This document shows positions 3,515 to 22,781 of a stretch of DNA of 48,949 bases, piece after piece; the first letter of the stretch is position 1, and each line of letters starts with the position of its first letter. The position numbers and the translations under genes were made by a program. Below the pieces are notes generated by a model that was not told the origin of the DNA, ran no database searches, and saw nothing but the letters and a program-made list of their open reading frames with translations. The stretch lies in IMG/VR virus record IMGVR_UViG_3300030202_001057, positions 620-49,568 of that record, one strand, 5' to 3'. This stretch comes from a virus.

Positions 3515-6500
3515 TTATTTAGGTTTAAGCAAACGCCTGTCTAAACTCTTCTTTACACCGTCTTCAAGTTTTAAATACTCTTGTGCTAATCCATTAAGCA
3601 TTCCCGTCAGTCCTGTCCCTTCACTAGTGGGGGCAGCTTGGGGTTGTCTCTGAGGCGTTGGAGCCGAAGGTTTCATATTGCGTACAAATTTCTTTTTAGG
3701 GCTACGCTTAACTTTACGGCCTGATTCATAAGGAGACCAATACTTAAAGTCATATTCATTATTATTTAAGAACCCCTCTCCACTTCGGATACCGGCTGCA
3801 ACTAAAGCAAAGTACGGAAGAGGAGTAATAGCAGCAACATTAGCTGCACCCTTTAGTGTATTACCTTCGTTAATCGAAGCAAAAGCATTGATAACTCTGG
3901 TAGGTAACTGAAGCATACGGTTAACCATAGCAATACCCGCAAGGTTGTAGATCTGCGTGTTTTGCGGACGTTGACCACGGAGAACCTGTAAGAGGGTGGC
4001 GATGACCATCTGGTTCATGCCAAAGAACGGAACAGACATAATAGCTTCTTGTAACTCTTGCATTGGATCTCGTTGCATTTCAGCCCACATTTCATCTACA
4101 TTCTTTGAGTTTTGAAGCTGAATGAGTTTATAGTACATGTAACCAGACAGAGCGTGTGCCATCACCGCACTAGCCATAAGGCCCATACCAGCGTAACCAG
4201 CCTTACGCAATCCTCCGTAAACAGTGGATGAATACGTAGTAAGAGAGGTAGCCAAGTTAGCAAACGGACCTAAAGCACTTGCTCCAGTTGCGGGATGCTC
4301 GGACAACGAGGGTTGTTTAGCATACCTAGTAGCAGCTAAGAACATAATTTCTCTAAATGCGTTAATAACTTGTAGCTGTTTAGCTCTAATTTCTGCTCCT
4401 GAGTTATAATCAAAAGTAACATCATTTAACATTTTATCAAAAGGAATTCCTTTTTGCCTAATGTCATCTCCATACTTTCTCCACATGTGTTTAAATATAG
4501 GAGCAAGATCTTCACTAAACAATCCGTTTTTAAGCATATCCATAACTAAGTTTCTTATGTCCGCCCCTAATCCTAATTGTTTTAGATCAGCATTTAAATC
4601 CGAGTTAGAGTATTTGCTTATGTCTACTCCTTTAAACATATTGTATAAGTCATCAAAGGTAGCCACAAGTTTATCTTCTTTAGGAGAAATAAAGGTTTCA
4701 TTACCGTCTTTATCAATCATGATAGAATGTTCATCTGTCATTCGGTAAAACAATTGATCCATATCAGTAATTGCTTTTCGGACACCGAATGCTCTGTTGT
4801 GCTGAACCTGAGTATCCAAACCCGTTGAAGTAAATTTATAAATTCTTTTAATCATTTGATCAATCTTTAGAGGCTCATTACCACCTTCAGAAATACCCCT
4901 GCTATCATCTAAACCAATCTTAGATAACACAACGTTAGCTTCGTACATTAAATCTTGAGTAATAAAACCTAATCCTTGGAGCCATTCTCTAGATTCATCT
5001 TTGTTCTGTAAAACTCTAATGTTTTCTCCCATGTATTTATTCATAGCCGTTAGGTTAGCTTTAAGGCTACCAATGACAGACATTGGAGTTTCTTCCAACA
5101 TAGCAGCAAACGCCAATCTAGGACCAACGCTAACGGCTGCTCCTAATTGACCGAGTTTATTAAGCATGTTAATGAAACCAATAGATGTTGCATCTTTATC
5201 ATCCCATTTTAATGTTCCGACTCCAAGCTGATACGTCTTTTTAATGTAATTTAAAGCGTGCTTAAATTTAGTTTTTTCAGTACCAGTTAAGCCACGTTTA
5301 TTTCCCTCTTGTTGCATAAGAGAGTTTAGCATAATATCTTTATATTCAGTAGGAGATCGATTAAAATAAGTATCAATACTATTAATTAGATCGCCAATAC
5401 CAAATCCTCTCATGCCTAAAGCGTTTCCAAATACTTGACGGTCAAAGGCTTGAGCAGCTTGACCACGCATAACTGAAGTAAATATTTCAATAGGATCTAA
5501 GTTTAAGTATTTTCTAATTTCAGGAGAATCAAACATATCAGCAGTAGATAAGAATTTATCTCCAATGAAGGAATACGCACTTGATCCAAATTTCTGCATA
5601 TAACCTTCAGAAACAAGATCAGCAAGTTTATTAACTACTGAGTCTGACGTTCTCATCTGAGAAGATTGAAGTTCTTTCATTCGTTTATCTTGAATGGATT
5701 CAATCATCTTTTGCTGATTTTCAGTACGTTCCATCTGTTCGCTTATGTGTTTATTATACACTTTTATTTCTTCTTCAGATAAGATCTTTGACTTAGTTAA
5801 CTTACCACTTTTAATATCGTTTAATAGTTCTTTAAACGCTCGACTACTGTTGTTTGTAAACTTATTAACGTATTCGTTATTATAAATGTCAGCCAGTCTG
5901 GTCATGTTAATACGTGTGGGTCCGTCAATATCCGCGCCTTCAAAAGAATCTGCAAAAATAACTTTAAATAAATCTTCTTCAATTAAATCGCTTTTAACAA
6001 GTTCTCTTTCAACAAGAGATGAAATAGCATTTCGTAATAATTCTCTAGCTTGGATGCCGTCTGTACCATCGTTTCTAAATGTAGAATCAGATAGTTTAAT
6101 TGGCACAACTCCTTCAGTTTGGAGACGATCCGCGAGTTTAACATCAAACACATTGCTATCTACCTGAGCAGCAAGAATCTGTTTCCATACACCGTTTTCT
6201 GGATTAGACCACATTTCAACTAAATCAACAATACGGTTAAGAAGATTATCTAATTTAGGATCATCTAAATCAACGGTCTGACCTTGTTTTTCAGCCATGT
6301 TTGACATAAGTTTTTGCGCTCTTTGCATGGCTGCTTCTCGTCCTTGCCAACCCTTAATTTCTTTTCCGTATTTATCCCCTATACGAGGATCTCTATTCAT
6401 CGTTATTTCCCAGAACATATTAACAAATGCTTCATAGGGCGAGTAAGGAGATCCGTTTCTTCCCATACCGGGAGTAAAGTTTGCTACCTTCATATTTAAC

Positions 6501-9500
6501 AAACCACTCATTAAAGGCTCAAAGACAGCCTTTAAGTGAAGACCTAATCCCTGTATAGTAGGAAGGTTAGTGCCGAATGCGCTAGATGAAATCAATGACT
6601 TAGTATCAATGCCTTGAAGCAAGAATAAAATAGTACCGCTGAGTTTATCAGTTTCACCAAGAAGGGCAAACTTCCTAGAGCCGAACGGTTGAGCAACATT
6701 TTCTATAAGTCGTTCGGCGGTTTGCCTTGACAGTTTACCAAGTAACATACCAGAAATAATATCGGCAAACGGACTATCAACAAGTTGACCAGAACCAACT
6801 TGTTTAATCTTAGATTCCATAAAACGACTAACGGCTTCTATTTTCTTTAAGTCCGTATCAATGTTCTGAGGATAAAAGAAACCTTCATGAGTATTTTCTT
6901 CGATAATCCTATCAATACGATCAACGTCATTTTCTTCGTGCCTAAAGTTTTTCTTTGGGCCTTCATTACTAAATTCGTTAGGAGGTAAATCATCTGCAAT
7001 CTCACTAGATGTTTTACGTTTCCTAACACTCTTAGATGAACCCCTAACACCACTAAAGTCAGTAATATTAGTAAGATTTTCATCTACCATTTTACCAAAA
7101 CCAGTTGCTTCAATAAAGGTAGGTATATTAGTATCTACAAAGTCTTTATAATGGTTGTAACGAGTGATGTAATGTTTAGCCATTCTGTGACCTTCGTTTA
7201 AAAGCTTACCATCCTCGCCTTTCATAAACGCTCTTACATCGTCTCCAAGAAGAACAGCCATAGCAAACATAGGTCCAAATAATTCTAAGTTATCGATTTT
7301 TTCGGATTTTATATTACCAATTAATTCTTCTTTTCGATCCTTATAGTTAATTCTATTTTCTGGATCACCAAATATACGGCGTTCGGCTTCTAAGAACTTA
7401 TCAAAACCATCTTTTGTTTTTAACATTTCTCTAGCTCTAGTAAGGAAACCAGTCATTCCTTCTTCGCTCATTCTTTGACCAATAAGGTGACCAAGTTCTT
7501 CAAGAATAACACCCACGGCTCCAAACTCTGAGATATCTTTAAAGCTTTCTGATAAATCTTTAGCGATTCTAATTCTTCTTTCTACAGAAGCATCTGCTCG
7601 TCCTCCGCTGATGTCAGGGTCTGTTTCAACTTTGACTTCTTTTTCAAACAACTTTTGTAAAAGACCTGAGTTTGTTTTATCAGAGAATACAGCTTTAAGT
7701 AAAAGTTTATCGCTTGAGTTAATCGTTCCTTCTGCTTCAAGGTTTTGCAAAATACCTAAGAAACGACCGTGTGCTACACTTTGACCGTTAAAGAAATCGT
7801 CTGAAAATACTCCGTCAATGCTGTTTAAACCAGAACCCTGCTCGTTGCCTTCAGTTCGTCGTGACATGGCGTGATTTATTTCTAATTCTACATCAAAGGA
7901 TGCTTGAGGACCACTAGGGTCTGCTGTTAACTCAACGTCGTTAACAATAAATGATGAGCTATCTTCAATATCAGCAAATGTAGTCTGTTGATCGCTTCTA
8001 GCGAATTCGGCCTCAACACTTTGAGGATTAGAGCTAATGTTCTGTTCGTTAACAAAAGTGTTCGGATCATACCGAGTGTCCGCAACCATTTTATTCCACT
8101 TTGCTTGTTTAATCTCGTCTAAAATAGGTTTAATGTTTTCGTTAAAATCTGTAATCAAATCTACAGTATCAATGATATCTTCACCACGTAAGTTACGTCG
8201 TAATGTTTCCATTCTCCTAAAGACATTAAACATACCGTCTTTAGATGTCATTAAGGGAACAAGTTCCATAGCTCTAATAAAGCTACTTTTATCTGTATTC
8301 TTAAACGAGTTAAGCCTAGCGTTATCTAATTCACCGATATCTTCAAAAATACTATCAGCTAAAATATTGTCAGCGTTATCAAAAGCAGACTTAATTGTAC
8401 CGGGAAGGTAGAATAAAAACTCAGCATCTTGGGATTTATTTCCAAAGAATACTTTACTACGATTATCTTTTTGAATCTCAACTTGCTTGTTATTCATAAT
8501 ATACTTAATCGCTTGAGTCATCATTACAGCGTTTGACCTGACTTCGCTAATAGACGTACCTCTGCTACTAAACGGATCGTGTCCTCCAATGACAGAAGAC
8601 AAGGATTTAGCAAACGGAAGTTTACCTGAAGGGTCAAGAGCATATGCAAATCTAATAGCATCAAAAAGTTTTTTGTTGCCGATAGAGTTTACAGCGTTTA
8701 ATTTTTCTACAGGCAGAAGTTTAACTCTTGCTTTACCCTTAATGTGGTGAGGTGAAGTAGGCTCACCAAACTGGTTAACAAAGACCTTATGTTTATTTGG
8801 ATCTAAAAGGCTATCTTCTGATTTATTCATAAGAAGATCTTTAATAGTCATACCCTGTTTCTTTAACCTGCGTTCAATACCGGGGAACATCTTCTTGATA
8901 TCATTTGCCACAGCTTCAGTTAAAGGCATACTACGAGTAGTTTCCTTTAAGATATAATCGTTATTGAAGTTATCAGATGCAAGGTTAGTACCCTCATCTA
9001 ACAAATCTTGAATTGTAGCCCTATCAGTTTCTTCAAACTTTCGGTATAAATCAGGATGGCGTTCTCCTAAGTAGCTGACATCGTTACCTTCAAACTTCTT
9101 ATACCAGTACTCACTAAATACGGCAATCTCAAGAGAAGTAACATCGTAGTCTTCTCCTAATAGTTTCTGAACTGCATGTCGTTTAGCGTAGTTCATAGCA
9201 TAGAGAGCTAAGTACAACGCCGCTGAGTCACCCCCAGCAAATGCTACCTTAGCATTCATTGCTATCTGAGCATCGCTGCCTTTACCGCTAACAACTTCAA
9301 CGTGACCTTCTTTAGTTAAGATTTGTCCTAAGAAAGTAGCATCATCTGCTAACCAAGCTAACAGGTTTCCTGCTTCCATATCGTTATTGTAAATAGTATG
9401 TTGAATAGCTTCTTCAACAGAAACCACTCCTTCTTTAACTGGGATGGTATCAATTGTATCGCCTTCTAAGCTATACAGGTCAGTAACTCTGTTCTTAGCG

Positions 9501-12500
9501 TCAAAGCCCCATTGAGTTAACGCTCTAACAATGTTTTCTTTCTCGATAATAGCTGCATCGATAAGAGCATCAAGTTCTTTTTGAGCAATTTGAATATCAA
9601 TATCATTTTCCAGTGCAATTCTAAGATCTTCGTTTCTTAGATTTTTATACTGAACCGCTTTTTTAGCGTCAATTAAATCTTGAACTTCATCTGATTTAAA
9701 CTGAATGTCCCTGTTTTTATTTAAACCGTTCTGTGCTGCACTGTACGTATAATAATTCAATAGAATTTGATCGTACCTACCGTCTTTCTGAAGCTGTGTA
9801 ATCTGCTCGTTTTTAACGTTTTGAACAAAATTATCTAATTCTATCTTAGTCATTTCAGCAACAATAGGCAGAGGAGGTGCTGTATCTAAGTTTGCTACAT
9901 AAGAGTCAAATACATTTGTGTTTACCGATGATCTAATTTTAAGAGGTTTAATCTGTGATAAATCCTCTGGGATTTGACTAACAGAAGCAAAATCTTCAAG
10001 ACTAAACGGATCTTCTGAAACTTTAGTACCCTCAAAAGACTGTCGAGCTTCTTCCAAAGATCGTAATCGACGAACAGTATTAGACCTTTCAAGCTGAACC
10101 CTTCTAATAAGACCTGATGGCGCACCTTCAAATTTATTAGTGTACGTTTTAGGTAAGAAACCAAACGCAGAAGGCAGGAAGTTAACCTGAGATGTTTCTT
10201 CAAATCCGGTCATTTCTTCCATAACGCTAGCAACTCTATCTGGTCGTTTTTCACCAGTAGAATCAATAATTTTAGAAAGCATCTTTTCAAGAATTTCTGC
10301 TTTTTCAATAAGCTCGTCTCTATTTTCTCTAGTAGATCTTGTAATAACTTTTCGGTTTTGTTCAACCTTTTTCAGTCCTTTAATAGCAGCCGCTCGTAAT
10401 TGATCGGCCCTTTGACTATCAGCTTCCCATTGATTTAAGAAGTCGTAGTAGGTTTTAGGAGTATATTCTTCATCTCCTATTTTAGGAAGTTTATCCGTAA
10501 ACTCCGCTGCTCGGATAGCTAAATCAAGAATAGTTAGCCTTCTGATATTTTCTTTTAAAGACCCCAAATCAACGTCAATATCATTAACCATTTCAGCAAT
10601 AGAATAAAACTCTCCTTGCCTAAAAGTTTTTTCGCTAATCATAGTTTGACCACTTGGGACATACATTCGTCCGTGATCTGAAGTAGCTAAGTTATTATAG
10701 AAAGTTTCTTCAAATGACCTTCGAGCCATAGGACTCATGTTATCTAGAATATCATCAACTTTAATACTTCCGCCAAACATAGCTGTAATCATGCGAGAGA
10801 AACTATCTTTATTAAACTTAAATCCCTGCCTAGCATAACTATTCAATGCCTGAGCTTTAATGTTCCGCGCTGTATCAAAAGTAGCTAGTTCTCTATAAAT
10901 CGTTTTAGCTTTATCGTACTGACCTTTCTCAATAGCGGATTTAAGCTCTTCGTTATCCATAACTTTACCCAACCAGTTATCTACAACCGATGCAACAACT
11001 TTTGATCCTTGAGTAGTATCTTTAAAGAAAGAGTTTTCCGTTAAGACTTTAGCCATACCTAAAGCACTCTTTAAAAGAGTATTAAAATCGTTATCTTCTG
11101 AATCAGCAACGATACCTTCTAAAGCAGCAACAGCTTCTGCTTCTGTCTGTTCTCCAGCATTAACAAGATCTGAAGCATCTTCTTTAATAGCTGTACCAGC
11201 ACCAATTTCACCTTCTCTAGTCAGTTTAAAATTGTTAAAATATTCTTGCAATTTAGCGTTAGTAATTTTGTTTGCACCTGATCGATTAGGAAATAACGTA
11301 TCTTTAATCCAAGCAATTTCATTTGGTGCAGCAGTTTCGTTAAACAGCTTACCTAAAAACGAAGAAGATAAGATAGCGGTTGAATCATAATCTGTTGCAG
11401 AAATAAGACCGCTTTTAATGAGCTTTTCTTTAACATCTTTCTTATTAAAGAACTTAGCATAAATAGCATCGCCCATTGTTTTAGCACCTGCTTGATACAA
11501 GTCAGTCATGGTAGGAGATTTAAAGATAGCCTTTAAATTAATATCAAGATCTTCTGCTTGCTCAAACAATTTCTTTAACATAGCTAAAGATGGTTTGTAT
11601 TTACCTAATTCAACTTCGTTATTTTTTAATAAGTTATCGATTTTATCGCCTTGAAGATCGTCGATAACAGCCTTTTTAACTTGATCATAAACTGTTTCAT
11701 AGTTTACATCGATAAACTCATCGTACAATGCAGTACCATCTTCTTCATCTAGGTCTTTTAAGATAGTCCTAAAGAACTCACGTAAAGCCTGTGCGCCTTC
11801 AACGCCCTGCACGATAGATAACATAATATTACTACCTGATGAGTCAGCGTCAAATTCTTCAGTAATAGCGGGGAATAATTCATCCTGAACTTTTTTTCTT
11901 TGTTCACTAGGAAGTTTTTCTAACCCGCCGCCAAAGAAAAACTCAGCGAAATCCATACCGTATTCTTTTTCGTATTTCTGATCGTATGCTTTTCTGGCTA
12001 CATTAAATAAGTTTTTATATCCAAAGGTAATTTCAGAAGCCACAAGAACACCGGCTTGGAATGAACCACCCCGTGCAATACCAACAGGGAATCCCCATCC
12101 TAAACCCTTGAATGGATTAATGCTTGTACCTTCAATATTAAATCTGGAGTTAAAGTGCATAGCATCTCCAACCACGATAGAAGAAAACATAGGGAATACA
12201 GCGTCATGCACTGTAGACATAAAGGCTGGATCAGAAGAGATGAAGTGAGCGTAGTTAGCTTCAATAGCATCGTCAATACCCTTCGGCATTTTGTCTGTAA
12301 GAGAATCAAACGCCCTAGTAGGTAAGATTAACATTCCGGTATCCCGACTTCGATTAGGAATAACTTCTGGGTTAATCTTAAAGTTTTTAACGAACTGATA
12401 CAAAGCTTCGATATCACCGTATTCAGCTTTAAGTAAATGATTAATTTTATCGTTTAAATCATATTCACTGTACATATCTGCAATAACCGAATCGGTTCGT

Positions 12501-15500
12501 TCCTGAATCTTCGTGTTTCGTCGTGTTCCCATGCTAGAGGCTTGCTCCACAAAGCCCCTAGATCCAGCTACAGCCCTTCTGCCGGTTACACGGCTTGTAC
12601 CCTCTCTCTGAGTTGTCAAAGCCTGTACGACGGCTGCTGCTGCCCTGTTGGGACTTACAAGATCCTTAGTACCCCCAAGCTCATCAAAGGATTTTAAACG
12701 CAACCCTTCAGGTAAATCAGCGTTAAACAAATCAAGCACTCGTTTTACAATTTGACCGGGAGATCTTAAGCCGCTTGAATCAATCTTATCGTTGGTTTCT
12801 ACTAATTTTGCTAACCTTCTTTCAAAATTTTGATTCCACTCTTCGATAGAAATAGGCGTAACATCTTCTCCATTGTACCTTAAGTTTGGATTAAGAGTTG
12901 ACCATTCTTTAGCTCTACGAATGCTACCATCGATAATCTCTTGATTAAAGTCTAACTGATTACGTACTCCGCCTTCTCCTTCAAACAGAGGGGTGCCTTC
13001 AATTTCACGATTAAATACCCTGTTGTAAGTATCATCAATACTTTTAATAAAGACGGGAGATTGGTTTTTATCTGCTAGATACAGAGCATCCTTCATAGCA
13101 GCAAGAACAACTTCTCCATCAAAGGCATCTGATCTACCGTTGCTCATTTCTCTAATCTTATTATAAAGCGGCCACATTTCTTCTGTAGCTAACAGACCCA
13201 ACAAATCAGATCGACTAATAGTATTGTCAAACTCAAATCCGCCCTCTAAAACAGAACCCTTTACTCGTTCCGCTTTTTGTCGTTGAAGCATTAGGAAACT
13301 GGAAGTCTTCATAAGAAGCCTCATTAAAGGAACAACAAATCCAACCGGAGGTCTAGATTCAATCATAATTCTTTCTGATTCTAATCGTATTTTATTCTGA
13401 ATAATACGCTTGGAGTCTTGTTTAACTCGGTCAGAAATTTCTTTTCTAATTTCATTCTGCCTTTTACGAATAGCGTCTAATTCTTTTTTGACCTCAGCTT
13501 TAAGATTTTCAGGAATAAACTCACTTGCTGGTACATCTGCTAAAACGTCTCTACCTTTTTCAGTAAATTCAATACCGAATTGTTTCATGCTTTCTGCTGT
13601 TTCTTCTTTTGTCTTTCTAGCAGGACCAAGAACTTCGTTTTCTTTTCTTTTTAGACCAGAATACTCAGGATCTAAATCTAACTGACGATTAATTTCGCGG
13701 TTAATGATTTCATCTTCTTGAGTTTTAATGCTCTCCTCAATAAGACCCTCAACTCTCTTAACGCTTTCTCGACTAAAGAAAGTACTATCAGAGCCAATCA
13801 TAGAAAGAACTTTTCGGTACGAGTCTTTTTCAGCTTCCGACAAACCCTTATCGAATTTATTTTTAACTTCAGCAATAAGCTTTTCTTTTGTTTTTTTATT
13901 TACCTTTTCAATACCAATAGCTCTTGCCAGACGTTCTACGGTTCTTTTACGGAAATTAAGTTTTTCTAGATCGCCGTTAAGAAGACTATCTTCTTCGTCT
14001 TTAACTTTTTGGATTGCTTCTTCAAACTGTTTAATCTTAGCGTCACTGTCCTCTAGTTCGCTTAATCCTTTTTTAACTAATTCAATCTTAGCCTCATCTG
14101 CTGTTTTAATAGGATTATTTCCGATGCTTCGTAAGTCTTCTGCAAGCATGTAGTACCTAGCTGCCTCAAAAGCTTGCTCAGGATCAATCCCACTACTAAT
14201 TAAACGATGAAAGTATTTTTCATGATTAGAAATATCTCGTCCTCGAATAGATTCAAGAAAATCGTTATCGATTAAACTTCTAACGGTATTCAGTTCAGCT
14301 TCAGTTAAAGAATCAGCAGCGTCGTAGTTTTTAAGTTTCATAAGAACGGCTTTTTCTTCTTCAGTAATGGGGCCAGACATTAACCGATTAATTAAATCGT
14401 TATCCATTCCCAAAATACCCATTACGGCTGCCCCGCTTGCTCCTTCAATTCCCTTCAGGTCGCTTTGAAGTTTTTTCTTAAGTCGTTTCCTGTAATCTGA
14501 AATATCCCCAGCTAAGAAAGGAACATTCTCAGAGTCTTTTTTAAGAACGGCTGTTTTATAGTTTTCAACGGCCTCAACTCTTTCTACAAGTTGGTTTTCT
14601 AAAATGTTGTTTAATTCGTCAAGTTTATTTTCTAATTTAACTGCTTGATTTTCAAATTCTTTAGCTTTAGCTTTTCCTGCTTTTCCTGTTCGTTTAAACC
14701 TCTTAATTCTTGTACGAATTTTATGTAACTCGTTTTCAATTTTTTCAATATTTTCTTTTGAGGCTTCTACTTCTTCTTCAACTTCATCAAAAACTTTTTT
14801 AGTTTCTGTAATCAGTTTGTCAGATTCTGTGTTGCTATTTTCTTGTCTTTCTGTGACTTGCTCTGCTGTTGCTGGTTCATTACCATCGGTAGTTTTTTGA
14901 GCCACGTTTTCTTGTTCAATAATACCCATTAACTCTTGCTGTTCTTGTCTTGCTTGTTCAATAGCAAAGTTAGTTTTTCTATCTATAAAGAATTTTTGAG
15001 TTGTTGACTGTTGTTTTAAATCTTCCCTGACACGCCTTATAAACTCTTCCGGTGAAACTCGTTCGCCGTTTAAAGCTTTCTTAACTGCAACAACTGCTTT
15101 TTTAATACTAAGTCCGCCCCGTTTAGATTTTGCGGATAAACCTAAAATTTCTTTTTCTAGGACATTAACAGCAGAAGTTTGATTCGTTTCGCTTTCACCG
15201 AACTCTACATCTTTAAGTGCTAAGTTAAGGGCGATTCGGGCATCACCAGAAATAGCGTTGTTTATAATTCTATTACCGATGTTTTTTAAAGTGTCTTTTG
15301 ACACCTGACCTAATCTATATAATCGTGATTCTTCATTTCGTTGAGCAATTTTTTCTTCAAGTTTACCGTTAATCTTATCAATAACATCGTCACTAACTTC
15401 AGGTTCTTTGTTTCGACTAAAGGGGGTTGATTCTGACAACCCTACAGCTATATCTTTTGTTGCTTTAGGAAGAGCTTTTCCTGCTGCAATGACACCTTCA

Positions 15501-17344
15501 AAAGTAGCACCAATAGTTGGAGCTAATGCTCCTCCCATTACACCACTCATAAGCATTGACTGGAGCATAGCACCGCTTTGTTCTCTTTGATACGCCATAG
15601 CATTAGCAGTTTCTTCTCCATAGAAAGCCTCGTTCATGACATCTTCAATGGAGGTAGCGTACTCGTATTCTAAATAACCCCAGACAACTCCTTCGCCTGC
15701 GCCTGAAACTGCTCTGTAAGCCATTTTACCTGATGTTGATTCGGGAAGATATTTACCTGACTGTAAGTAGTTATAGAAGTTTTTAGCTTTCCCTGCTGCA
15801 CCTTTACCTTTAGTTACACCCGTTTTAAAATAAAATAAAGTAGACGGCACCAATAATTCTGACACAATCTGAGTAGGCATAATTCGTTGGGCGTTTAAAA
15901 GAATATCTCCAAAGTTTTCAACCCCTCGTCCTAATTTTGTTACGCCTACATCAACCATATCATTTAGGTTTCTTAATCCAGTACCAAGTCTACCCATTCT
16001 ACTAACAGTTTCGTAAGTATTAGTAGCTTTATTAAGTCGCTTAACACTAAGTGCTGCATCAATACCGTAAGAAAGACCTGCTGCTCCTTGAATTAATCTT
16101 CCGCCCCCTTTAAGAAGAGCCCAACCCCCTAAAGTTACACCTGTAGCTAAAATATCTAAAGGTAAAGAGGGATCGGTAGTAAATCCGTATCCTAACATAT
16201 TCATTGTACCCGCTACACCAAAACCGTCAGATCTACTTACAAATTCTCCAATATTATATTCAATCTGGCGTTTATTTAATCCGGCAGAGAATGCAACTGA
16301 GTTTTTAGAGTTTTTTAAATCTTCAATAATATGAGGATTTTTAACTAAGTATTCTCTAACTTGAGGATTGTCTGACGTTTCAATAGCCGCAGCTAAAAGA
16401 TCTCTAACTCCGGGTAAGTCTTCTGTTCCTTGCCATGATTTATCTTCAGCTAAAAGAAGTTTATCAATACCATCTTCTCTGCCGAACATAGTTTCGTAAC
16501 TTACGTACTCGTCTTCGCCGTAGAAAGGATTCATCTTACGGAGATTTCCAGTAAACCAGTTATCGCTTGGGCTGTAATTTGCTAAATCAATTTGTTCTTG
16601 TACTGCTTGATCTTTAAATAAAACATCTAAGTCTACTCCCTTTAGTTGATGGTCTTCAGGAAGAGAATCAATAACCTGTTCTAAAATGTTTTTATCGAAC
16701 ATCCTCATCTTCATTTGATTGGCTTGTTCGCCCATAACATTAAGAGATTTACCTAAAACAGACTGGAAGGTAGGGGCAGCACCAGCGTTTTGGTAAGCAG
16801 ACGCATCAAACGCATTAGATAAATCAAAGAAACGCTGACCTGTAGCAAACTGAATATTACCAAATAACTTACTATTTAAATACGTGGAAGCATTTTCAGG
16901 ATCCGCTAAAGCTGAGTTTACACCTCTTGTAAACAAAGGTGATCCTTGAAAAAGTAATTCTAGTTTTTCATTCTTACCTAAGTTTTCTCTCTGTTGGTCA
17001 ATTTCATCTGCAATACTTTGGATTTGCCTTGTAAAGAAATCGTTATCAGCCCTAATACCCTCCATAAGTTCTACGGGGTTAACCCTAAAAGGTGTAAATA
17101 AGTTTTCTGCTACATCGCTAAAGGAATCTAAAATATATTTAGAATCCATAGTATCGTAAATATACGGAGCAGCATCTGCTGAACCTTGAATAAAACTACC
17201 GATATTATCACTTAACAACTGCTCTGACATTACATCAGATAAAGTTCTAGGAGCAATGTTTTTTTCGTACTCTGCTCGTCTAAGTTTTTCATAGAATTCA
17301 GTAGCTTCTTTTGAATAGTTCTCACTATTAAAATCAATAGGCAT
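3515..17344 (-). CDS. giant internal virion / ejection protein (4609 aa), gp16-position
   Basis: It sits in the place of T7 gp16 (about 1318 aa), directly behind the gp15-like protein, and is about 3.5 times longer. Visible parts: N-terminus with Gly/Ala-rich hydrophobic segments (about 375-640, e.g. ILATGVTLGGWALL) that could enter membranes; a long coiled coil (about 830-935); long helical charged stretches; a zincin-like ILEELGHLIGQ at about residue 3283 where the usual first His of HExxH is Glu; and a C-terminal hydrophobic Gly/Ala region (about 4360-4550) like that of other podovirus inner-core proteins. I do not see a lysozyme or transglycosylase motif. A role in DNA ejection is inferred from position and composition. 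It resembles 'large polyvalent protein' architectures. The ribosome site AAGGAATAAACT precedes ATG 17344; one uninterrupted frame of 13.8 kb. Confidence 0.75.
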   Translation of the reverse strand: MPIDFNSENYSKEATEFYEKLRRAEYEKNIAPRTLSDVMSEQLLSDNIGSFIQGSADAAPYIYDTMDSKYILDSFSDVAENLFTPFRVNPVELMEGIRADNDFFTRQIQSIADEIDQQRENLGKNEKLELLFQGSPLFTRGVNSALADPENASTYLNSKLFGNIQFATGQRFFDLSNAFDASAYQNAGAAPTFQSVLGKSLNVMGEQANQMKMRMFDKNILEQVIDSLPEDHQLKGVDLDVLFKDQAVQEQIDLANYSPSDNWFTGNLRKMNPFYGEDEYVSYETMFGREDGIDKLLLAEDKSWQGTEDLPGVRDLLAAAIETSDNPQVREYLVKNPHIIEDLKNSKNSVAFSAGLNKRQIEYNIGEFVSRSDGFGVAGTMNMLGYGFTTDPSLPLDILATGVTLGGWALLKGGGRLIQGAAGLSYGIDAALSVKRLNKATNTYETVSRMGRLGTGLRNLNDMVDVGVTKLGRGVENFGDILLNAQRIMPTQIVSELLVPSTLFYFKTGVTKGKGAAGKAKNFYNYLQSGKYLPESTSGKMAYRAVSGAGEGVVWGYLEYEYATSIEDVMNEAFYGEETANAMAYQREQSGAMLQSMLMSGVMGGALAPTIGATFEGVIAAGKALPKATKDIAVGLSESTPFSRNKEPEVSDDVIDKINGKLEEKIAQRNEESRLYRLGQVSKDTLKNIGNRIINNAISGDARIALNLALKDVEFGESETNQTSAVNVLEKEILGLSAKSKRGGLSIKKAVVAVKKALNGERVSPEEFIRRVREDLKQQSTTQKFFIDRKTNFAIEQARQEQQELMGIIEQENVAQKTTDGNEPATAEQVTERQENSNTESDKLITETKKVFDEVEEEVEASKENIEKIENELHKIRTRIKRFKRTGKAGKAKAKEFENQAVKLENKLDELNNILENQLVERVEAVENYKTAVLKKDSENVPFLAGDISDYRKRLKKKLQSDLKGIEGASGAAVMGILGMDNDLINRLMSGPITEEEKAVLMKLKNYDAADSLTEAELNTVRSLIDNDFLESIRGRDISNHEKYFHRLISSGIDPEQAFEAARYYMLAEDLRSIGNNPIKTADEAKIELVKKGLSELEDSDAKIKQFEEAIQKVKDEEDSLLNGDLEKLNFRKRTVERLARAIGIEKVNKKTKEKLIAEVKNKFDKGLSEAEKDSYRKVLSMIGSDSTFFSRESVKRVEGLIEESIKTQEDEIINREINRQLDLDPEYSGLKRKENEVLGPARKTKEETAESMKQFGIEFTEKGRDVLADVPASEFIPENLKAEVKKELDAIRKRQNEIRKEISDRVKQDSKRIIQNKIRLESERIMIESRPPVGFVVPLMRLLMKTSSFLMLQRQKAERVKGSVLEGGFEFDNTISRSDLLGLLATEEMWPLYNKIREMSNGRSDAFDGEVVLAAMKDALYLADKNQSPVFIKSIDDTYNRVFNREIEGTPLFEGEGGVRNQLDFNQEIIDGSIRRAKEWSTLNPNLRYNGEDVTPISIEEWNQNFERRLAKLVETNDKIDSSGLRSPGQIVKRVLDLFNADLPEGLRLKSFDELGGTKDLVSPNRAAAAVVQALTTQREGTSRVTGRRAVAGSRGFVEQASSMGTRRNTKIQERTDSVIADMYSEYDLNDKINHLLKAEYGDIEALYQFVKNFKINPEVIPNRSRDTGMLILPTRAFDSLTDKMPKGIDDAIEANYAHFISSDPAFMSTVHDAVFPMFSSIVVGDAMHFNSRFNIEGTSINPFKGLGWGFPVGIARGGSFQAGVLVASEITFGYKNLFNVARKAYDQKYEKEYGMDFAEFFFGGGLEKLPSEQRKKVQDELFPAITEEFDADSSGSNIMLSIVQGVEGAQALREFFRTILKDLDEEDGTALYDEFIDVNYETVYDQVKKAVIDDLQGDKIDNLLKNNEVELGKYKPSLAMLKKLFEQAEDLDINLKAIFKSPTMTDLYQAGAKTMGDAIYAKFFNKKDVKEKLIKSGLISATDYDSTAILSSSFLGKLFNETAAPNEIAWIKDTLFPNRSGANKITNAKLQEYFNNFKLTREGEIGAGTAIKEDASDLVNAGEQTEAEAVAALEGIVADSEDNDFNTLLKSALGMAKVLTENSFFKDTTQGSKVVASVVDNWLGKVMDNEELKSAIEKGQYDKAKTIYRELATFDTARNIKAQALNSYARQGFKFNKDSFSRMITAMFGGSIKVDDILDNMSPMARRSFEETFYNNLATSDHGRMYVPSGQTMISEKTFRQGEFYSIAEMVNDIDVDLGSLKENIRRLTILDLAIRAAEFTDKLPKIGDEEYTPKTYYDFLNQWEADSQRADQLRAAAIKGLKKVEQNRKVITRSTRENRDELIEKAEILEKMLSKIIDSTGEKRPDRVASVMEEMTGFEETSQVNFLPSAFGFLPKTYTNKFEGAPSGLIRRVQLERSNTVRRLRSLEEARQSFEGTKVSEDPFSLEDFASVSQIPEDLSQIKPLKIRSSVNTNVFDSYVANLDTAPPLPIVAEMTKIELDNFVQNVKNEQITQLQKDGRYDQILLNYYTYSAAQNGLNKNRDIQFKSDEVQDLIDAKKAVQYKNLRNEDLRIALENDIDIQIAQKELDALIDAAIIEKENIVRALTQWGFDAKNRVTDLYSLEGDTIDTIPVKEGVVSVEEAIQHTIYNNDMEAGNLLAWLADDATFLGQILTKEGHVEVVSGKGSDAQIAMNAKVAFAGGDSAALYLALYAMNYAKRHAVQKLLGEDYDVTSLEIAVFSEYWYKKFEGNDVSYLGERHPDLYRKFEETDRATIQDLLDEGTNLASDNFNNDYILKETTRSMPLTEAVANDIKKMFPGIERRLKKQGMTIKDLLMNKSEDSLLDPNKHKVFVNQFGEPTSPHHIKGKARVKLLPVEKLNAVNSIGNKKLFDAIRFAYALDPSGKLPFAKSLSSVIGGHDPFSSRGTSISEVRSNAVMMTQAIKYIMNNKQVEIQKDNRSKVFFGNKSQDAEFLFYLPGTIKSAFDNADNILADSIFEDIGELDNARLNSFKNTDKSSFIRAMELVPLMTSKDGMFNVFRRMETLRRNLRGEDIIDTVDLITDFNENIKPILDEIKQAKWNKMVADTRYDPNTFVNEQNISSNPQSVEAEFARSDQQTTFADIEDSSSFIVNDVELTADPSGPQASFDVELEINHAMSRRTEGNEQGSGLNSIDGVFSDDFFNGQSVAHGRFLGILQNLEAEGTINSSDKLLLKAVFSDKTNSGLLQKLFEKEVKVETDPDISGGRADASVERRIRIAKDLSESFKDISEFGAVGVILEELGHLIGQRMSEEGMTGFLTRAREMLKTKDGFDKFLEAERRIFGDPENRINYKDRKEELIGNIKSEKIDNLELFGPMFAMAVLLGDDVRAFMKGEDGKLLNEGHRMAKHYITRYNHYKDFVDTNIPTFIEATGFGKMVDENLTNITDFSGVRGSSKSVRKRKTSSEIADDLPPNEFSNEGPKKNFRHEENDVDRIDRIIEENTHEGFFYPQNIDTDLKKIEAVSRFMESKIKQVGSGQLVDSPFADIISGMLLGKLSRQTAERLIENVAQPFGSRKFALLGETDKLSGTILFLLQGIDTKSLISSSAFGTNLPTIQGLGLHLKAVFEPLMSGLLNMKVANFTPGMGRNGSPYSPYEAFVNMFWEITMNRDPRIGDKYGKEIKGWQGREAAMQRAQKLMSNMAEKQGQTVDLDDPKLDNLLNRIVDLVEMWSNPENGVWKQILAAQVDSNVFDVKLADRLQTEGVVPIKLSDSTFRNDGTDGIQARELLRNAISSLVERELVKSDLIEEDLFKVIFADSFEGADIDGPTRINMTRLADIYNNEYVNKFTNNSSRAFKELLNDIKSGKLTKSKILSEEEIKVYNKHISEQMERTENQQKMIESIQDKRMKELQSSQMRTSDSVVNKLADLVSEGYMQKFGSSAYSFIGDKFLSTADMFDSPEIRKYLNLDPIEIFTSVMRGQAAQAFDRQVFGNALGMRGFGIGDLINSIDTYFNRSPTEYKDIMLNSLMQQEGNKRGLTGTEKTKFKHALNYIKKTYQLGVGTLKWDDKDATSIGFINMLNKLGQLGAAVSVGPRLAFAAMLEETPMSVIGSLKANLTAMNKYMGENIRVLQNKDESREWLQGLGFITQDLMYEANVVLSKIGLDDSRGISEGGNEPLKIDQMIKRIYKFTSTGLDTQVQHNRAFGVRKAITDMDQLFYRMTDEHSIMIDKDGNETFISPKEDKLVATFDDLYNMFKGVDISKYSNSDLNADLKQLGLGADIRNLVMDMLKNGLFSEDLAPIFKHMWRKYGDDIRQKGIPFDKMLNDVTFDYNSGAEIRAKQLQVINAFREIMFLAATRYAKQPSLSEHPATGASALGPFANLATSLTTYSSTVYGGLRKAGYAGMGLMASAVMAHALSGYMYYKLIQLQNSKNVDEMWAEMQRDPMQELQEAIMSVPFFGMNQMVIATLLQVLRGQRPQNTQIYNLAGIAMVNRMLQLPTRVINAFASINEGNTLKGAANVAAITPLPYFALVAAGIRSGEGFLNNNEYDFKYWSPYESGRKVKRSPKKKFVRNMKPSAPTPQRQPQAAPTSEGTGLTGMLNGLAQEYLKLEDGVKKSLDRRLLKPK

Positions 17345-17390: not shown

Positions 17391-20300
17391 TTAAATCTTA
17401 GGGGTGTTTAGACTACCCCGCGATAGTCTTCGCAGTTCTGTTTCGGCGAGTGCTGCTTCTTTTTTTTGTTCTTCTTTAAAGAATTTATAAGTCCAGAAAT
17501 TGGGATAATTTTTATAATTAAATTTTGACTGCGGTACATCCCTTCTTCCAGTGTGTAATAAAATACGATCTCTAAATTCTTCTGCTCTAAGCTGTAACTG
17601 ATTATTACCATTTCCGTTTAACATGTACGGAGACATTCTATTTCCTTCGTTTACCATATAGTAAAACGTACCGTTAATATTTTCATAAGCAAAAATACCG
17701 TTAGTAGTAGAAGTACTAGTTCGCTCAAAGTTATCGTGTGTATCTTTTAAAAAGTCTAATGCAGCCTTTAAACCTTCTTTTTCTTTAATTTGTGCAGTAG
17801 CTGTATATAAAACAGAAAGTTGATTTAAAGCGAATAAAGACATACCTTCTTCAATCATTTCTACACCGTCTTCGCCTGTAAATCTTCTACCCCCTAATAA
17901 ATTAGTTTCGCCTCTCGGAGAAGCTAACATTTTAAGCAAATCTAGATAAGCTTGAGGCGCAGCCCCTCCCTCAATATGTCTGTGTAAATGATCAAAATTA
18001 TTCTCATCTGTAAGCAAGTTTTCAAAAGCTGATGTTACTTTATAGAACGAGCTAATCGGAACGCTAGTTTGTGAAAGCTGAGTGTTATGGTTTATAACCC
18101 CCATATTTGCATATCCCCCAGTCATTCCCCCAGTCATTCCGGTATCTTCTACAAATCGAGTTCTAAAGGCGTTTGCTCCGGTTGGATCCCACGCATTAAA
18201 TTGAATGGTATTTTGATCGTCTGCTGTACCTTGAAATGTATTTACATCAAAGGTATAATTACCTAAAGCGTCTAACTCTTCATCAGTAGCCCCAATTTCT
18301 TTCATAGAAGCTTTTACCATTTCTGTAACATATTTATTACCTTTATCTGTTGCTTGAGTAATGCCAATAGAAACTCTTGTATTATTTTGTTTTAAAATAG
18401 ATAAAAGCAAATCCATAGAGTCTTCTGGTCCTACTTGTCCTCTATCTCTTAGACTAGTTACTGAAACAATACCATTATGTAACGCTGTTTCCATTTGTCC
18501 GTTCTCGACAAACTTTGTTAATATATCCCTATTTTGTAATGCTCCTCCTGCAATAGCTTGTGCTACAGAAAGACCAAAGTTTTGTTGTGTGTCCATACTA
18601 ATAAGAGGCGCACCTACTTCGCTTACAAACGACCTATTAGGAATATTCATATTAAAACCGTGATTAACAAAAGTTGCGGGATTAGAAGGATCAACTCCTC
18701 GGGGTATAAAAATATTTGACATACTCGCTATTTTAAATACACCGGGTCCAAACGAAGGTAATTCTATCCCACTTGAAGGACTAATAAAATAAGATTGAAA
18801 TCCTTCCATAACAGAACGTGCTGCTTCTGTTTCGTTTGGGCTTATTGCTGATAAAACTCTACCATTTTTAAACATGTAGTCAGCGAGTATTCTGTTTCTA
18901 GGTGCGCTAGATTCAAGATTTTGGATACCCGATAACATCTGTGTATTAAGCCCTAAGTAGTTACCGACAAAACCAATGGCAGCTTGTTTTAATTCGTTGT
19001 TAGGAAGATTTGTACCAAATAAATTACTTATTGCTGCAATGCTTTTTGCGTTTTTTTCTCTCCAGCCAATAAAATCAAAATCTGTTGTTTTGTTACCTTC
19101 TGGATCGTACATGTCACTTCTAGTTTGGTCACTAAATTTTGTTATTTGAGACGCTAACTCACTCATAGCTTCTTGAGGAACAGTACTAGAATTTGATCCG
19201 TTTCTTGCATCAAAGGCTAATTTAGATGCGACAGTACCAGATAAAAACGGAATCATTGCATTAGAATCACTACTTAGTTCAAACGAATCATTACTTGCTG
19301 TAATTAATTGAGTACTTTCTTCTACTTGTTTTGCGTAATTTGCAGTAAGAATACCTAAATTTGTTTTATATTTTTTAAAAGAATCTATCATCTCGGGATC
19401 TTTTGGGTTTTTAAACTGATTTGAAAGTCTTTCAAATTCTTGTAACATACCAAAATAATTAACTTCTTGTTTTGTTGCGTTTGTGTGTGCAGCTTCGACC
19501 AGTTCAATATCTTCAAGTAAACCAGTAGAAATGTTTAAGTCTGGATCACGCATAGTACGAAGAAACATATTAATTTTAGTTCTAAGGTGAATTTCCTGAT
19601 CTTCTAAAAATTGCATGGAATTACCGAACATTCCACTTTCTGCGGCAGCTATTAAAACACCATTAAGATATCTACCACCCTGTTGAGTTTCGTTTCCTCC
19701 TATAGATATTCCTTTTTTAAGTTCAACCAAAGTATTACTAAAGAATCTAGCTCTTTCGTTAACTTCATCACGCGAAATTAATAAACCTTGTTTATCGAGT
19801 GTTCTAGCTAATTCTTCTCTAGATTGTAAGTTTTTTTCTGATGGCGATTCGTTATATAAATCAGCAGTTTCAATAAGACTATTAATGCGTTCAGACTCAT
19901 ATAAAGAAAAAGAATTACCTACAGGATTTCCTACTCCTTCTCCCTGTTCATCATATTGATTAAATTCTGCTTGTGATCGAAGATATTCAGAGTAATAAAT
20001 AGATTGACTTAAGATATAATTTTTTTGACTAATTTGATCGTCAGAGCTTACATACCCTGTGTTATTTATTACATTAAGAATCTCACCTGCTCTGTCGGGT
20101 CCGCCGGTTGGAGGAGGAGTACCTAAATTATCTGGCTCTTTTACATCTAATAAAGCAGATTTTTCTGGTCCTAATACTTGCTTAAATCTCTGTTTAAATA
20201 AGTTTTCTGCATCCCCCAATGCTGAAGTTATTGACATAGTAAGACCAAAAAGTTCTTTCTGTTGAAAATCATACGGACCTTCGTCATTTTTTCTAGCGAT

Positions 20301-21512
20301 TTCATCATACTTATCACTTAACCACTCAGGATTCTCTTGAATATTTCTAACTAATTCTTGATTTTCAGGAGAAAAAGAAACAGAAGGAAATGCACTTAAA
20401 GTTTGTGAAATTTCTGTAGGAGATTTAGGTTGCCTACTAATTCCCGATAATTTAGCCCAAACATTAGGTATAAACGTAGAGGGATCTGCTGCCAAAGCTT
20501 CTCCGTCTCTTACAATAGAAGCGGCAATTTCAGTAGGAGATAAACCAAAATCAAAAAGAAAAGGAAGATCTGTGTTATTTGTAGTGGATGAGACTACACC
20601 TGAAAGTAAATTAGTTCTTTGTCCTTCTTTTTCAACAATAGTATTCCCCATAGATTTAAACGCAGAATACTTATTATCGATATTTTCCATTATGGCTTGA
20701 TTTTCAGTAATTGTTCTAGGGTCGTAACCGTTTTCAGCAAATACTGTTTCTAACTCAGCCATAAATTGATTTTGATTACCCGCAGAAGAAAAGAAACTAG
20801 GATCTTTAGATTTTAAAATAATGTCAGCCTGAAGCGAGGCAAAGTTGTTCATAGCCTCAAACTGTTTTTTATAAATCTGCTGCTGTTGACCGTCTGCCCA
20901 CAGTCTAGACTGGATATCAAATTGAGGTTCATTCGTTCTAAGATCTGCTGCTGATTGAACTAAAAATTCTTCCCTAGACATGGAATCATCTTGAGGATTA
21001 ACGGGATAGCTCATACTTGCTTGGATTGTTTTTGTAGCCCAATCGCTAAACCTTAATTTATCTTGAACACCGTTTAACTCCTGCAAAGCCCTAGTCTTTT
21101 GAGTATGTGCAGCAATTTGATATTTCCTTGACATTGGTTTAAAGTCACCGTAAGCTTTGCTAATTAATTCTAACTTTTGTTCATACCCCAGATCTGGATT
21201 AGCGTTGGTGCTTTGAGCAAATAAGAAAATATCATCAAATTTTTCTTTGTCTATACGATCCCTTACTTCAGTTCCTTGCTCAACAATTTTTCCTAAAGGT
21301 CGTAAGGCGTTTACTAAATTTGTAGCAATACTGGGAGCATACCCATAAGCTGAAGGAGCGTCTTGTCCGAACTTAATTGTACCCGGCTTAAATTGTGAAA
21401 CTTGTTTTGCAGTTTTGTACGTAGTTCTAGTTTGTCGTTGAACTCGTTCAAGCTGGCCCGGAATGCGTCCTGTTTGTTCTCTTTTATCATTTTGTGTAAT
21501 TCTGGGGGGCAT
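17391..21512 (-). CDS. internal virion protein, gp15-like position (1373 aa)
   Basis: Large, polar, Asn/Gln-rich helical protein starting MPPRITQNDKREQTGRIPGQ, with no signal peptide or membrane helix. In T7-like phages the protein between gp14 and gp16 (gp15, 747 aa) is an inner-core protein that enters the cell and helps pull in DNA; this one is almost twice that size. Assignment rests on order (gp14-like, this, gp16-like) and composition rather than on a recognisable domain. AAGGAGATAAACT precedes the ATG, 11 nt behind the gp14-like gene. The 46-nt gap to the giant gene is AT-rich and holds only a weak AAGAT/ATCTT stem. Confidence 0.7.
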   Translation of the reverse strand: MPPRITQNDKREQTGRIPGQLERVQRQTRTTYKTAKQVSQFKPGTIKFGQDAPSAYGYAPSIATNLVNALRPLGKIVEQGTEVRDRIDKEKFDDIFLFAQSTNANPDLGYEQKLELISKAYGDFKPMSRKYQIAAHTQKTRALQELNGVQDKLRFSDWATKTIQASMSYPVNPQDDSMSREEFLVQSAADLRTNEPQFDIQSRLWADGQQQQIYKKQFEAMNNFASLQADIILKSKDPSFFSSAGNQNQFMAELETVFAENGYDPRTITENQAIMENIDNKYSAFKSMGNTIVEKEGQRTNLLSGVVSSTTNNTDLPFLFDFGLSPTEIAASIVRDGEALAADPSTFIPNVWAKLSGISRQPKSPTEISQTLSAFPSVSFSPENQELVRNIQENPEWLSDKYDEIARKNDEGPYDFQQKELFGLTMSITSALGDAENLFKQRFKQVLGPEKSALLDVKEPDNLGTPPPTGGPDRAGEILNVINNTGYVSSDDQISQKNYILSQSIYYSEYLRSQAEFNQYDEQGEGVGNPVGNSFSLYESERINSLIETADLYNESPSEKNLQSREELARTLDKQGLLISRDEVNERARFFSNTLVELKKGISIGGNETQQGGRYLNGVLIAAAESGMFGNSMQFLEDQEIHLRTKINMFLRTMRDPDLNISTGLLEDIELVEAAHTNATKQEVNYFGMLQEFERLSNQFKNPKDPEMIDSFKKYKTNLGILTANYAKQVEESTQLITASNDSFELSSDSNAMIPFLSGTVASKLAFDARNGSNSSTVPQEAMSELASQITKFSDQTRSDMYDPEGNKTTDFDFIGWREKNAKSIAAISNLFGTNLPNNELKQAAIGFVGNYLGLNTQMLSGIQNLESSAPRNRILADYMFKNGRVLSAISPNETEAARSVMEGFQSYFISPSSGIELPSFGPGVFKIASMSNIFIPRGVDPSNPATFVNHGFNMNIPNRSFVSEVGAPLISMDTQQNFGLSVAQAIAGGALQNRDILTKFVENGQMETALHNGIVSVTSLRDRGQVGPEDSMDLLLSILKQNNTRVSIGITQATDKGNKYVTEMVKASMKEIGATDEELDALGNYTFDVNTFQGTADDQNTIQFNAWDPTGANAFRTRFVEDTGMTGGMTGGYANMGVINHNTQLSQTSVPISSFYKVTSAFENLLTDENNFDHLHRHIEGGAAPQAYLDLLKMLASPRGETNLLGGRRFTGEDGVEMIEEGMSLFALNQLSVLYTATAQIKEKEGLKAALDFLKDTHDNFERTSTSTTNGIFAYENINGTFYYMVNEGNRMSPYMLNGNGNNQLQLRAEEFRDRILLHTGRRDVPQSKFNYKNYPNFWTYKFFKEEQKKEAALAETELRRLSRGSLNTPKI

Positions 21513-21523
21513 AGTTTATCTCC

Positions 21524-22288
21524 TTAAAGCTGCATATTACCGTAGCCGCCAATATTTGTAGGGCCAACACCAGAGACACCATAGCCTCCGCTTAATCCGC
21601 CGAGTTGAAATCCTCCTCCAGATCCACCGGAACTACCGGAACTACTGGGGCTTGTTGCTGCTCCTCCGCCAAAGGCACCGCCTAAAGCACTACCAAGCAT
21701 TCCTCCGCCCATCACACCACTCATAACACCATTAAGAATTGCCATACTCATGTCAGGCTGCTGAGGCGGCATACCGGGTACATATGCGTCTGCTTGCTGC
21801 ATAGAATCATCGATTTGATTAAGGTTATTTCGATATTGAGTTTCCATAGCTTTTTCTGCATCAAGAGTATTAAAGAACTCCGTTTGCCAGTTTTTAGCTC
21901 CCTTGTGTTTCATTTGCTCACGAATGCGTTCTGCTGTTCCTGAAGATGAACCCAATTTAGCAGTAACCATAGAGTTAGTAGAAGCTTCTGTTAATCGCTG
22001 GTTTTCAGCCATAAACTGCCGTCTATCTTCAGTAGTTTTCTGAAAATTTAAACGTTCTCTGGCATAGTTTCTAGACATTGCCTCTGCATTAAGCATATTT
22101 TGAACTTGTTTTGTTGCATTAGCGTTTGCAATTCCAAATAGTTGCTTGCTGTGAGCAATAGTTTCTCTTATGGTTCTATCGTTATACGCGGCCATCTCTG
22201 CGTTATATTTGTTCCTTGCTTCACTACTTCCAGAAAATCCTCCTAAAACACCACCAGCAATCATACTACCAGCCATTAAATAAGGCAT
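21524..22288 (-). CDS. internal virion protein, gp14-like (254 aa)
   Basis: The N-terminus MPYLMAGSMIAGGVLGGFSG is a Gly-rich hydrophobic segment followed by a long amphipathic helix region (SEARNKYNAEMAAYNDRTIRE onward), and the C-terminus (about 185-254) is almost all Gly/Ser/Ala with repeated GG motifs. This is the usual plan of T7 gp14-type internal virion protein B (196 aa in T7), which inserts into the outer membrane during ejection. It is followed directly by the gp15-like gene. The ATG is 2 nt behind the stop of the sulfotransferase-like gene, with its ribosome site inside that gene. Confidence 0.7.
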   Translation of the reverse strand: MPYLMAGSMIAGGVLGGFSGSSEARNKYNAEMAAYNDRTIRETIAHSKQLFGIANANATKQVQNMLNAEAMSRNYARERLNFQKTTEDRRQFMAENQRLTEASTNSMVTAKLGSSSGTAERIREQMKHKGAKNWQTEFFNTLDAEKAMETQYRNNLNQIDDSMQQADAYVPGMPPQQPDMSMAILNGVMSGVMGGGMLGSALGGAFGGGAATSPSSSGSSGGSGGGFQLGGLSGGYGVSGVGPTNIGGYGNMQL

Positions 22289-22289
22289 A

Positions 22290-22781
22290 TCAATCCTCCA
22301 TAAAAGAAAGTATTTCGTCTAATTTATCGTTTATGTCTTCTGTATAGACATGCAAGATGGGGTAATTAGCTTCTTCTAAAGCCCTTGTAAGACACCACCT
22401 AGACCAATCAATGATATCTGTAGGTGGATTAAAAGGGGATGTAAAATTAACTATTTCCTTTTCTTTTTTATAAATTCTATTGACGCTTTCTAATTGTCTT
22501 TCTTTATCTTTGCGTTCTAATATAAGAAGCCTGTTTATGTTATACACTGGGGTTTTTAGCAACAAGGCAGGCCAAACCTTTACATACATGTTTTTCCACA
22601 TGTGATCTTTACAACCATCCTCCATTACTTGAGGATCTAATTCCCAGAACCCATCAGGATTTTCATCCTTAGGGGTAAAATATAAAAACTTTTTACCAGC
22701 AATAGGTAATCCATTTTTTCGTAAAAAATTCATTGTAAACGAAGTACCAACTCGTGGTCCTATTCCGGTAACTACTCTCAT
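22290..22781 (-). CDS. short P-loop sulfotransferase-like protein (163 aa)
   Basis: It opens MRVVTGIGPRVGTSFTMNFL, a P-loop-like PAPS-binding (5'-PSB) motif of the G-x-G-R-V-G-T-S type, followed by ENPDGFWE, which I have seen in phage and bacterial sulfotransferase-fold proteins. LLILERKDKERQLESVNRI fits the second nucleotide-contact region (R followed by S). At 163 aa it is shorter than typical sulfotransferases (about 250-300 aa) and may be a minimal version or a related P-loop protein. It overlaps the terminase stop (ATGA) so is translationally coupled to it. Substrate unknown; modification of host or virion surface molecules is possible. Confidence 0.6.
   Translation of the reverse strand: MRVVTGIGPRVGTSFTMNFLRKNGLPIAGKKFLYFTPKDENPDGFWELDPQVMEDGCKDHMWKNMYVKVWPALLLKTPVYNINRLLILERKDKERQLESVNRIYKKEKEIVNFTSPFNPPTDIIDWSRWCLTRALEEANYPILHVYTEDINDKLDEILSFMED

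Follow-up and report, generated by a model that had tools for sequence, protein, structure and literature searches.

A cysteine-free protein of 4609 residues in a T7-type short-tailed phage is probably an enlarged gp16-type ejection protein

The window, by which we mean the whole stretch of 48,949 nucleotides analysed here, covers bases 620-49568 of a 49,568-base IMG/VR virus record and derives from an uncultured, short-tailed phage. On the minus strand its genes follow one another in the order portal, scaffold, major head protein, tail A, tail B, a 722-residue protein, a 2381-residue protein, a group of small genes, the large terminase subunit, and then four proteins of 163, 254, 1373 and 4609 residues. 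The portal (head-tail adaptor, 47115..48680) and the major head protein (44662..46068) are T7-like, and the portal and the terminase (22778..24472) resemble those of T7-type phages, with 30-42% identity. Tail B, the nozzle (39251-43861, 1536 residues), has a PHROG match at residues 1047-1532 only, its N-terminal 1000 residues being an extension. At the other end of the window, positions 1-2000 have a GC content of 51%, against approximately 39% elsewhere, and adjoin a run of N at bases 610-619 of the record, just ahead of the window and outside the giant gene; the open reading frame at 236-1018 still has phage relatives.

The gene at 3515..17344 encodes the 4609-residue giant, a protein without cysteine, and takes up 28.3% of the window. 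An earlier note on this DNA had placed a frame of this length at exactly these coordinates, without stating that the coding strand is the minus strand, to which all features given below also belong; it had also put the frame at more than a quarter of the window and at 3.5 times the size of T7 gp16, and both figures are borne out by measurement (T7 gp16 has 1318 residues). The hydrophobic Gly/Ala regions it described near both ends are present at residues 301-750 (15095..16444) and 4351-4500, with approximately 21% Gly plus Ala, the second falling within the most conserved, hydrophobic C-terminal region (residues 4331-4515, 3800..4354). Residues 751-1350 (13295..15094) are the least conserved, proline-poor and 33-41% charged, but the spacing of hydrophobic residues gives no clear heptad signal, and the long coiled coil of the earlier description is only partly supported. 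Pfam searches of the giant returned sub-threshold matches only, and residues 1351-3190 (7775..13294), the proposed cargo site, contain no domain that these searches recognise. They are followed by a zincin-like region, delimited by motif and profile comparison (residues 3191-3400, 7145..7774), and by a region whose predicted structure matches gp16-type ejection proteins (residues 3534-4055, 5180..6745).

Relatives were gathered using the terminase as bait, which yielded 34 loci, and 22 of their records were searched with both halves of the giant. Six of the 22 matched, each with one open frame without stops; these six records, with giants of 4641-4735 residues and no internal stop, form clade 1, which has seven members when the window is included. 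Listing the frames in 12 records revealed a second clade of six records, in which the terminase is approximately 60% identical to that of the window and a giant of 5133-5565 residues occupies the same gene place. Homology between the two clades is seen in the C-terminal region, where their profiles match with E 9e-19 over 781 columns, and a profile of this region found the giant in 13 of 23 records including the window, the ten misses being contigs of 12-26 kb. The giant is therefore a single unbroken, syntenic frame in 12 related IMG/VR records, over a range of 4641-5565 residues. Three usable pairs gave dN/dS values of 0.24, 0.37 and 0.20 (the pair including the window protein, with its synonymous sites saturated, stands outside them), and judging from these ratios the frame is under purifying selection. 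Its intactness in 12 other records, together with dN/dS values of 0.20-0.37, excludes a chance frame. One of these relatives, the 72.9-kb record G005 (L060-L061), has two slightly differing copies of the terminase start, one at each end, a pattern suggesting that strain variants of a circularly permuted genome of approximately 71.7 kb were assembled together.

Neither tblastn with either half of the giant nor a DNA search with the TerL region matched any phage record in INPHARED, a scan of IMG/VR with C-terminal pieces of the window giant gave no further homologues, and a search with the clade-1 alignment recovered the six records already known, with no further ones, and no relative in bacterial and archaeal genomes. 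We found no paper describing this giant-protein family in the open-licence literature.

The giant is the last and largest of three adjacent genes 3' of the terminase. The smallest (21524..22288, 254 residues) is a candidate outer-membrane protein of gp14 type, with Gly-rich ends and a family conserved across the clades, and the middle one (17391..21512, 1373 residues) is a candidate tunnel protein of gp15 type, assigned by order and composition. The earlier note had assigned the giant to the gp16 slot, and this holds for the order of small, middle and giant protein but not for the place: the T7 trio precedes gp17 and the terminase, whereas here the trio comes after the terminase and the giant does not lie between gp15 and gp17. 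In all 16 of the 34 terminase loci that have a full 10 kb downstream, a run of Cys-poor or Cys-free genes is followed by a Cys-free open frame running off the end. In clade 2 the cassette has one to three extra Cys-free or Cys-poor genes 5' of the giant (L088-L091 region; 325-347, 187-332 and 689 residues), and the protein in the tunnel place reaches 2481 residues. The 163-residue gene directly after the terminase (22290-22781) is conserved in clade 1 (59-98%) and has its clade-2 relatives elsewhere in the genome.

The three cassette proteins contain no cysteine at all, compared with 151 Cys in 10,218 residues (1.5%) for the other window frames of at least 100 residues, a denominator from which the giant is excluded and in which the 254- and 1373-residue proteins are included. 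The giant is Cys-free in 7/7 members of clade 1 and 4/6 of clade 2, the remaining two carrying 2 and 1 Cys. Across 11 distinct records (leaving out G004 and G018, near-copies of G005 and G017), cassette genes of at least 500 residues hold 8 Cys in 72,249 residues and 19 of 23 are Cys-free, against 1170 Cys in 62,820 residues and none of 75 Cys-free among the non-cassette proteins of the same records. Nine control phages behave similarly: 16 of 17 ejection proteins of at least 500 residues are Cys-free (2 Cys in 19,150 residues), against 3 of 36 other proteins (180 Cys in 24,441 residues). The significance values of both counts treat related proteins as independent. Frames were taken automatically, so that N4 gp50 appears with 3506 instead of 3500 residues, and among the controls the ejection proteins of CRP-361, HTVC109P (gp15) and Lau218 were assigned from order and size rather than from record names. 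Cysteine is absent from all seven gp16-type proteins (T7 gp16 and six others), from N4 gp50, gp51 and gp52, from P22 gp7, gp20 and gp16 and from T7 gp15; T7 gp14 has one, and the non-ejection proteins N4 gp56 and gp57 are likewise Cys-free. The six large proteins of crAss001, which stands outside the count, have 10, 2, 0, 1, 1 and 3 Cys. According to PMC2784036 and PMC3915230, N4-type virion polymerases have no cysteine, an absence reportedly first described by Kazmierczak et al. 2002 that may matter for entry.

In striking contrast to the Cys-free cassette, the 2381-residue protein encoded between tail B and the terminase (29867-37012) contains 99 Cys (4.2%), and its relatives 91-102; it is perhaps a disulphide-rich receptor-binding appendage.

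We modelled residues 3480-4609 of the giant from 13 sequences, obtaining a mean pLDDT of 57, with residues ~3597-3998 mostly at 65-88. Foldseek against the PDB found nothing significant with this model (best E 0.03). When the Foldseek candidates (817 chains) were re-aligned, the top match to this pLDDT-57 model was 9vvp_O (residues 496-838; Z 7.6, 266 residues, rmsd 5.4), followed by 8vb2_A from the PhiM1 ejectosome (residues 531-911; Z 7.3, 300 residues, rmsd 6.9), with the third row at only Z 4.7; both leading matches stay under Z 8, a range in which a score can reflect a shared helical arrangement. Chain 8vb2_A is a tetrameric ejection protein homologous to phiKMV gp37, and 9vvp is an entry for phage E1004 that contains a homologue of T7 gp16, which we take from its length to be the core protein, chain O. 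T7 gp16 and N4 gp50 are absent among the structural matches listed, which excludes neither. A search of viral models placed an LPD-domain protein and internal virion proteins among the better matches. That the C-terminal quarter matches gp16-type tetrameric ejection proteins best is suggestive, at the quality of this model, and is not proof.

By sequence the relationship was not seen. In profile-versus-profile comparison none of the cassette proteins showed homology to T7-type gp14, gp15 or gp16, so that we do not file the giant in the T7 gp16 sequence family, nor did the giant show any to the C-terminal domain of N4 gp50. An N-terminal lytic transglycosylase is present in T7 but is not universal. 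No Pfam or PHROG match to such an enzyme was found in the giant.

The zincin-like region lies approximately 70% along the window giant, where alignment identifies the motif EELGH (residues 3282-3286, 7487..7501) and a candidate third metal ligand, E3354 (7283..7285). EExGH is invariant in the 7/7 clade-1 giants, near residue 3282-3396; the aligned clade-2 site reads HELSH, HEFAH, HEFSH, EEIGH or HEVME, so that HExxH is intact in 3/5 distinct clade-2 giants. The motif is in register in all 11 distinct giants, each of which also has a Glu approximately 65 residues further on, and HExxH would be expected by chance only ~0.015-0.23 times per protein. For clade 2, the region matches, in register, that of the metallopeptidase in N4-type virion RNA polymerases (E 6e-4, against 0.47 for the reversed control); between the two clades the match is in register but weak (E 0.03; reversed 0.31). 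A model of the region, with a pLDDT of 50, gave no convincing zincin match and is uninformative at such quality. The window giant has EExGH in place of the intact HExxH plus Glu, and as judged from the alignment its zincin-like signature is degenerate, with the first metal-binding His replaced by Glu. The peptidase of the N4 polymerase is described as the commonest domain of polyvalent proteins, with self-processing suggested as its role (Iyer et al. 2017, PMC5512222).

The earlier note had proposed that the middle of the giant may carry several unrecognised enzymes, as a polyvalent protein. This is partly supported. In the window giant no second domain was recognised besides the degenerate zincin-like signature; among the relatives, the clade-2 HExxH sites are joined by a second HExxH at residue 909 of G008 and by an ART-PolyVal domain at residues 1134-1302 of the G017 giant (E 2.3e-7, 32.1 bits against a curated cut-off of 31.2). 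The latter was not found at the matching place of other clade-2 giants except the near-copy G018, nor was an ART domain found in clade 1, to which the window belongs. Matches to PDDEXK, Exo5, RNase_H_2, SprT-like, Zincin_1, Peptidase_MA_2 and other Pfam families in the relatives lay below the cut-offs and were not used. The giant gene sits among virion genes, as genes of polyvalent proteins do.

We propose, with a probability of roughly 80%, that the giant is a gp16-type inner-membrane/cytoplasmic component of the ejectosome, enlarged to ~507 kDa and carrying cargo in the manner of polyvalent proteins. The reading is built on the conserved single frame, the gene order, the lack of cysteine, the conservation of the motif and the best structural match. 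An ejected virion protein of gp16 type is also what the earlier note had suggested, and the position of the giant as third in a Cys-free cassette, last as in T7 and N4, together with the best match of its C-terminal model, points the same way. Most likely it works like gp16 while standing outside the T7 gp16 family by sequence, and very probably it is delivered into the host cell along with the viral DNA.

Other explanations have to be weighed against this one. An assembly or frame artefact that fused several genes could be suspected from the run of N in the record, although this lies outside the giant gene; with 13/13 giants, the window included, found as single frames across separate records, and with the signs of purifying selection, we regard it as negligible. 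The earlier note had named relatives with a split frame as a case that would refute its single giant protein, and none of these 13 is split. The giant might instead be a structural component of the virion, scaffold-, tape-measure- or appendage-like, that is retained in the head or tail and not injected; Cys-free structural proteins do exist, and the search of viral models gave weak matches to tape measure folds (probability at most 0.28). We consider this unlikely, because the head and tail genes are of the short-tailed T7 type, the wholly Cys-free trio resembles ejection cassettes, and the other large virion proteins of the lineage contain Cys. To our knowledge, a tape measure has no obvious role alongside such head and tail genes.

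Still less probable is a non-virion late protein acting, for example, in the host during assembly: nothing speaks directly for it, the absence of Cys would be pointless in a purely cytoplasmic protein, and the gene lies inside a conserved virion cassette. The remaining alternative, a virion RNA polymerase of N4 type that has diverged past recognition and transcribes early genes after injection, would share its gene order, lack of Cys and zincin region with the giant, and in one relative residues 1973-2063 match RNA_pol below threshold (E 0.012). That match, however, spans 71 of 448 profile positions in one of seven clade-1 members, and Pfam and motif searches found no single-subunit RNA polymerase domain in the giant, the polymerase motifs giving no consistent pattern. 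Moreover, the lineage encodes a T7-type RNA polymerase elsewhere (E 2e-73), as well as a helicase-primase and a DNA polymerase (G001, G003), so that such a role is unneeded; the polymerase gene falls outside the incomplete window record, and we infer its presence in the window phage from G001. We conclude that the giant is very improbable as an N4-type polymerase.

For the enlarged gp16-type component that we favour, we infer packaging, ejection, refolding, membrane contact and any enzyme activity along the following lines. The giant would be packaged in the head with the 254- and 1373-residue proteins, and the three would pass out through the tail one after another, first the outer-membrane, then the tunnel and last the hub protein, as described for T7 and N4 (PMC12633501, PMC8954989). 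The chain of ~507 kDa would exit extended, either ahead of the DNA or together with it, and regain its fold in the envelope and cytoplasm, and its lack of Cys would avoid disulphides in the virion and periplasm. Residues ~3534-4055 would form the gp16-like hub, the hydrophobic stretches at 301-750 and 4331-4515 would contact the membrane, and the approximately 3,000 residues upstream of the hub would serve as cargo and spacer, as in polyvalent proteins, including a zincin-like domain related to the metallopeptidase of those proteins and degenerate in the window phage. More tentatively, and with rather less than even confidence, a gp16-like protein of a T7-type lineage may have become a general delivery vehicle, with a hub near the C-terminus and up to ~4,500 residues of cargo that can be exchanged (a metallopeptidase, an ADP-ribosyltransferase and other, unrecognised domains), all threaded through the tail as one chain. 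In the window clade the peptidase would then have become an invariant Glu-Glu-x-Gly-His plus Glu site that binds another metal or serves some purpose other than catalysis.

Among known systems, the T7 gp16 and PhiM1 gp48-type proteins are like the giant in their last-of-three position, absence of Cys and C-terminal model match, and the PhiM1 protein is described as a hub domain into which enzyme-like domains are inserted (PMC11440229); the giant differs in being 3.5 times larger, without detectable sequence homology or a recognised lytic transglycosylase, and in a cassette placed after the terminase. The N4 gp50 virion RNA polymerase of the Schitoviridae shares giant size, last place of three, absence of Cys and a zincin region about two thirds along (PMC5512222), whereas the window giant has no polymerase domain found and no C-terminal profile homology to it, and belongs to a lineage with a separate T7-type RNA polymerase. 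The polyvalent proteins as described by Iyer et al. 2017 (PMC5512222) are similar in their adjoining virion genes and zincin-type signature, and in the ART-PolyVal domain of one relative; in the window giant, by contrast, a degenerate zincin signature only is joined to a gp16-like C-terminal region in a T7-type lineage.

A Cys-free ejection-type family of 4,600-5,600 residues in a T7-type lineage goes beyond the sizes in published lists: its members exceed every gp16-type protein in the ejection-protein list of PMC8954989, in whose table the largest gp16-like protein has 1337 residues. Ejection cassettes beyond the reach of sequence homology can be sought by their total absence of Cys, which is a simple marker to read from sequence. 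The passage of the 3,500-residue N4 polymerase through a tail of ~35 angstrom is described as unknown (PMC12633501), and the threading question now becomes testable outside N4; with relatives of up to 5,565 residues, one of them with an extra enzyme domain, this family is well suited to testing how very large proteins are threaded through a narrow tail. If cargo domains can be exchanged, which the ART domain of a single relative suggests, these phages would possess a natural protein-delivery system.
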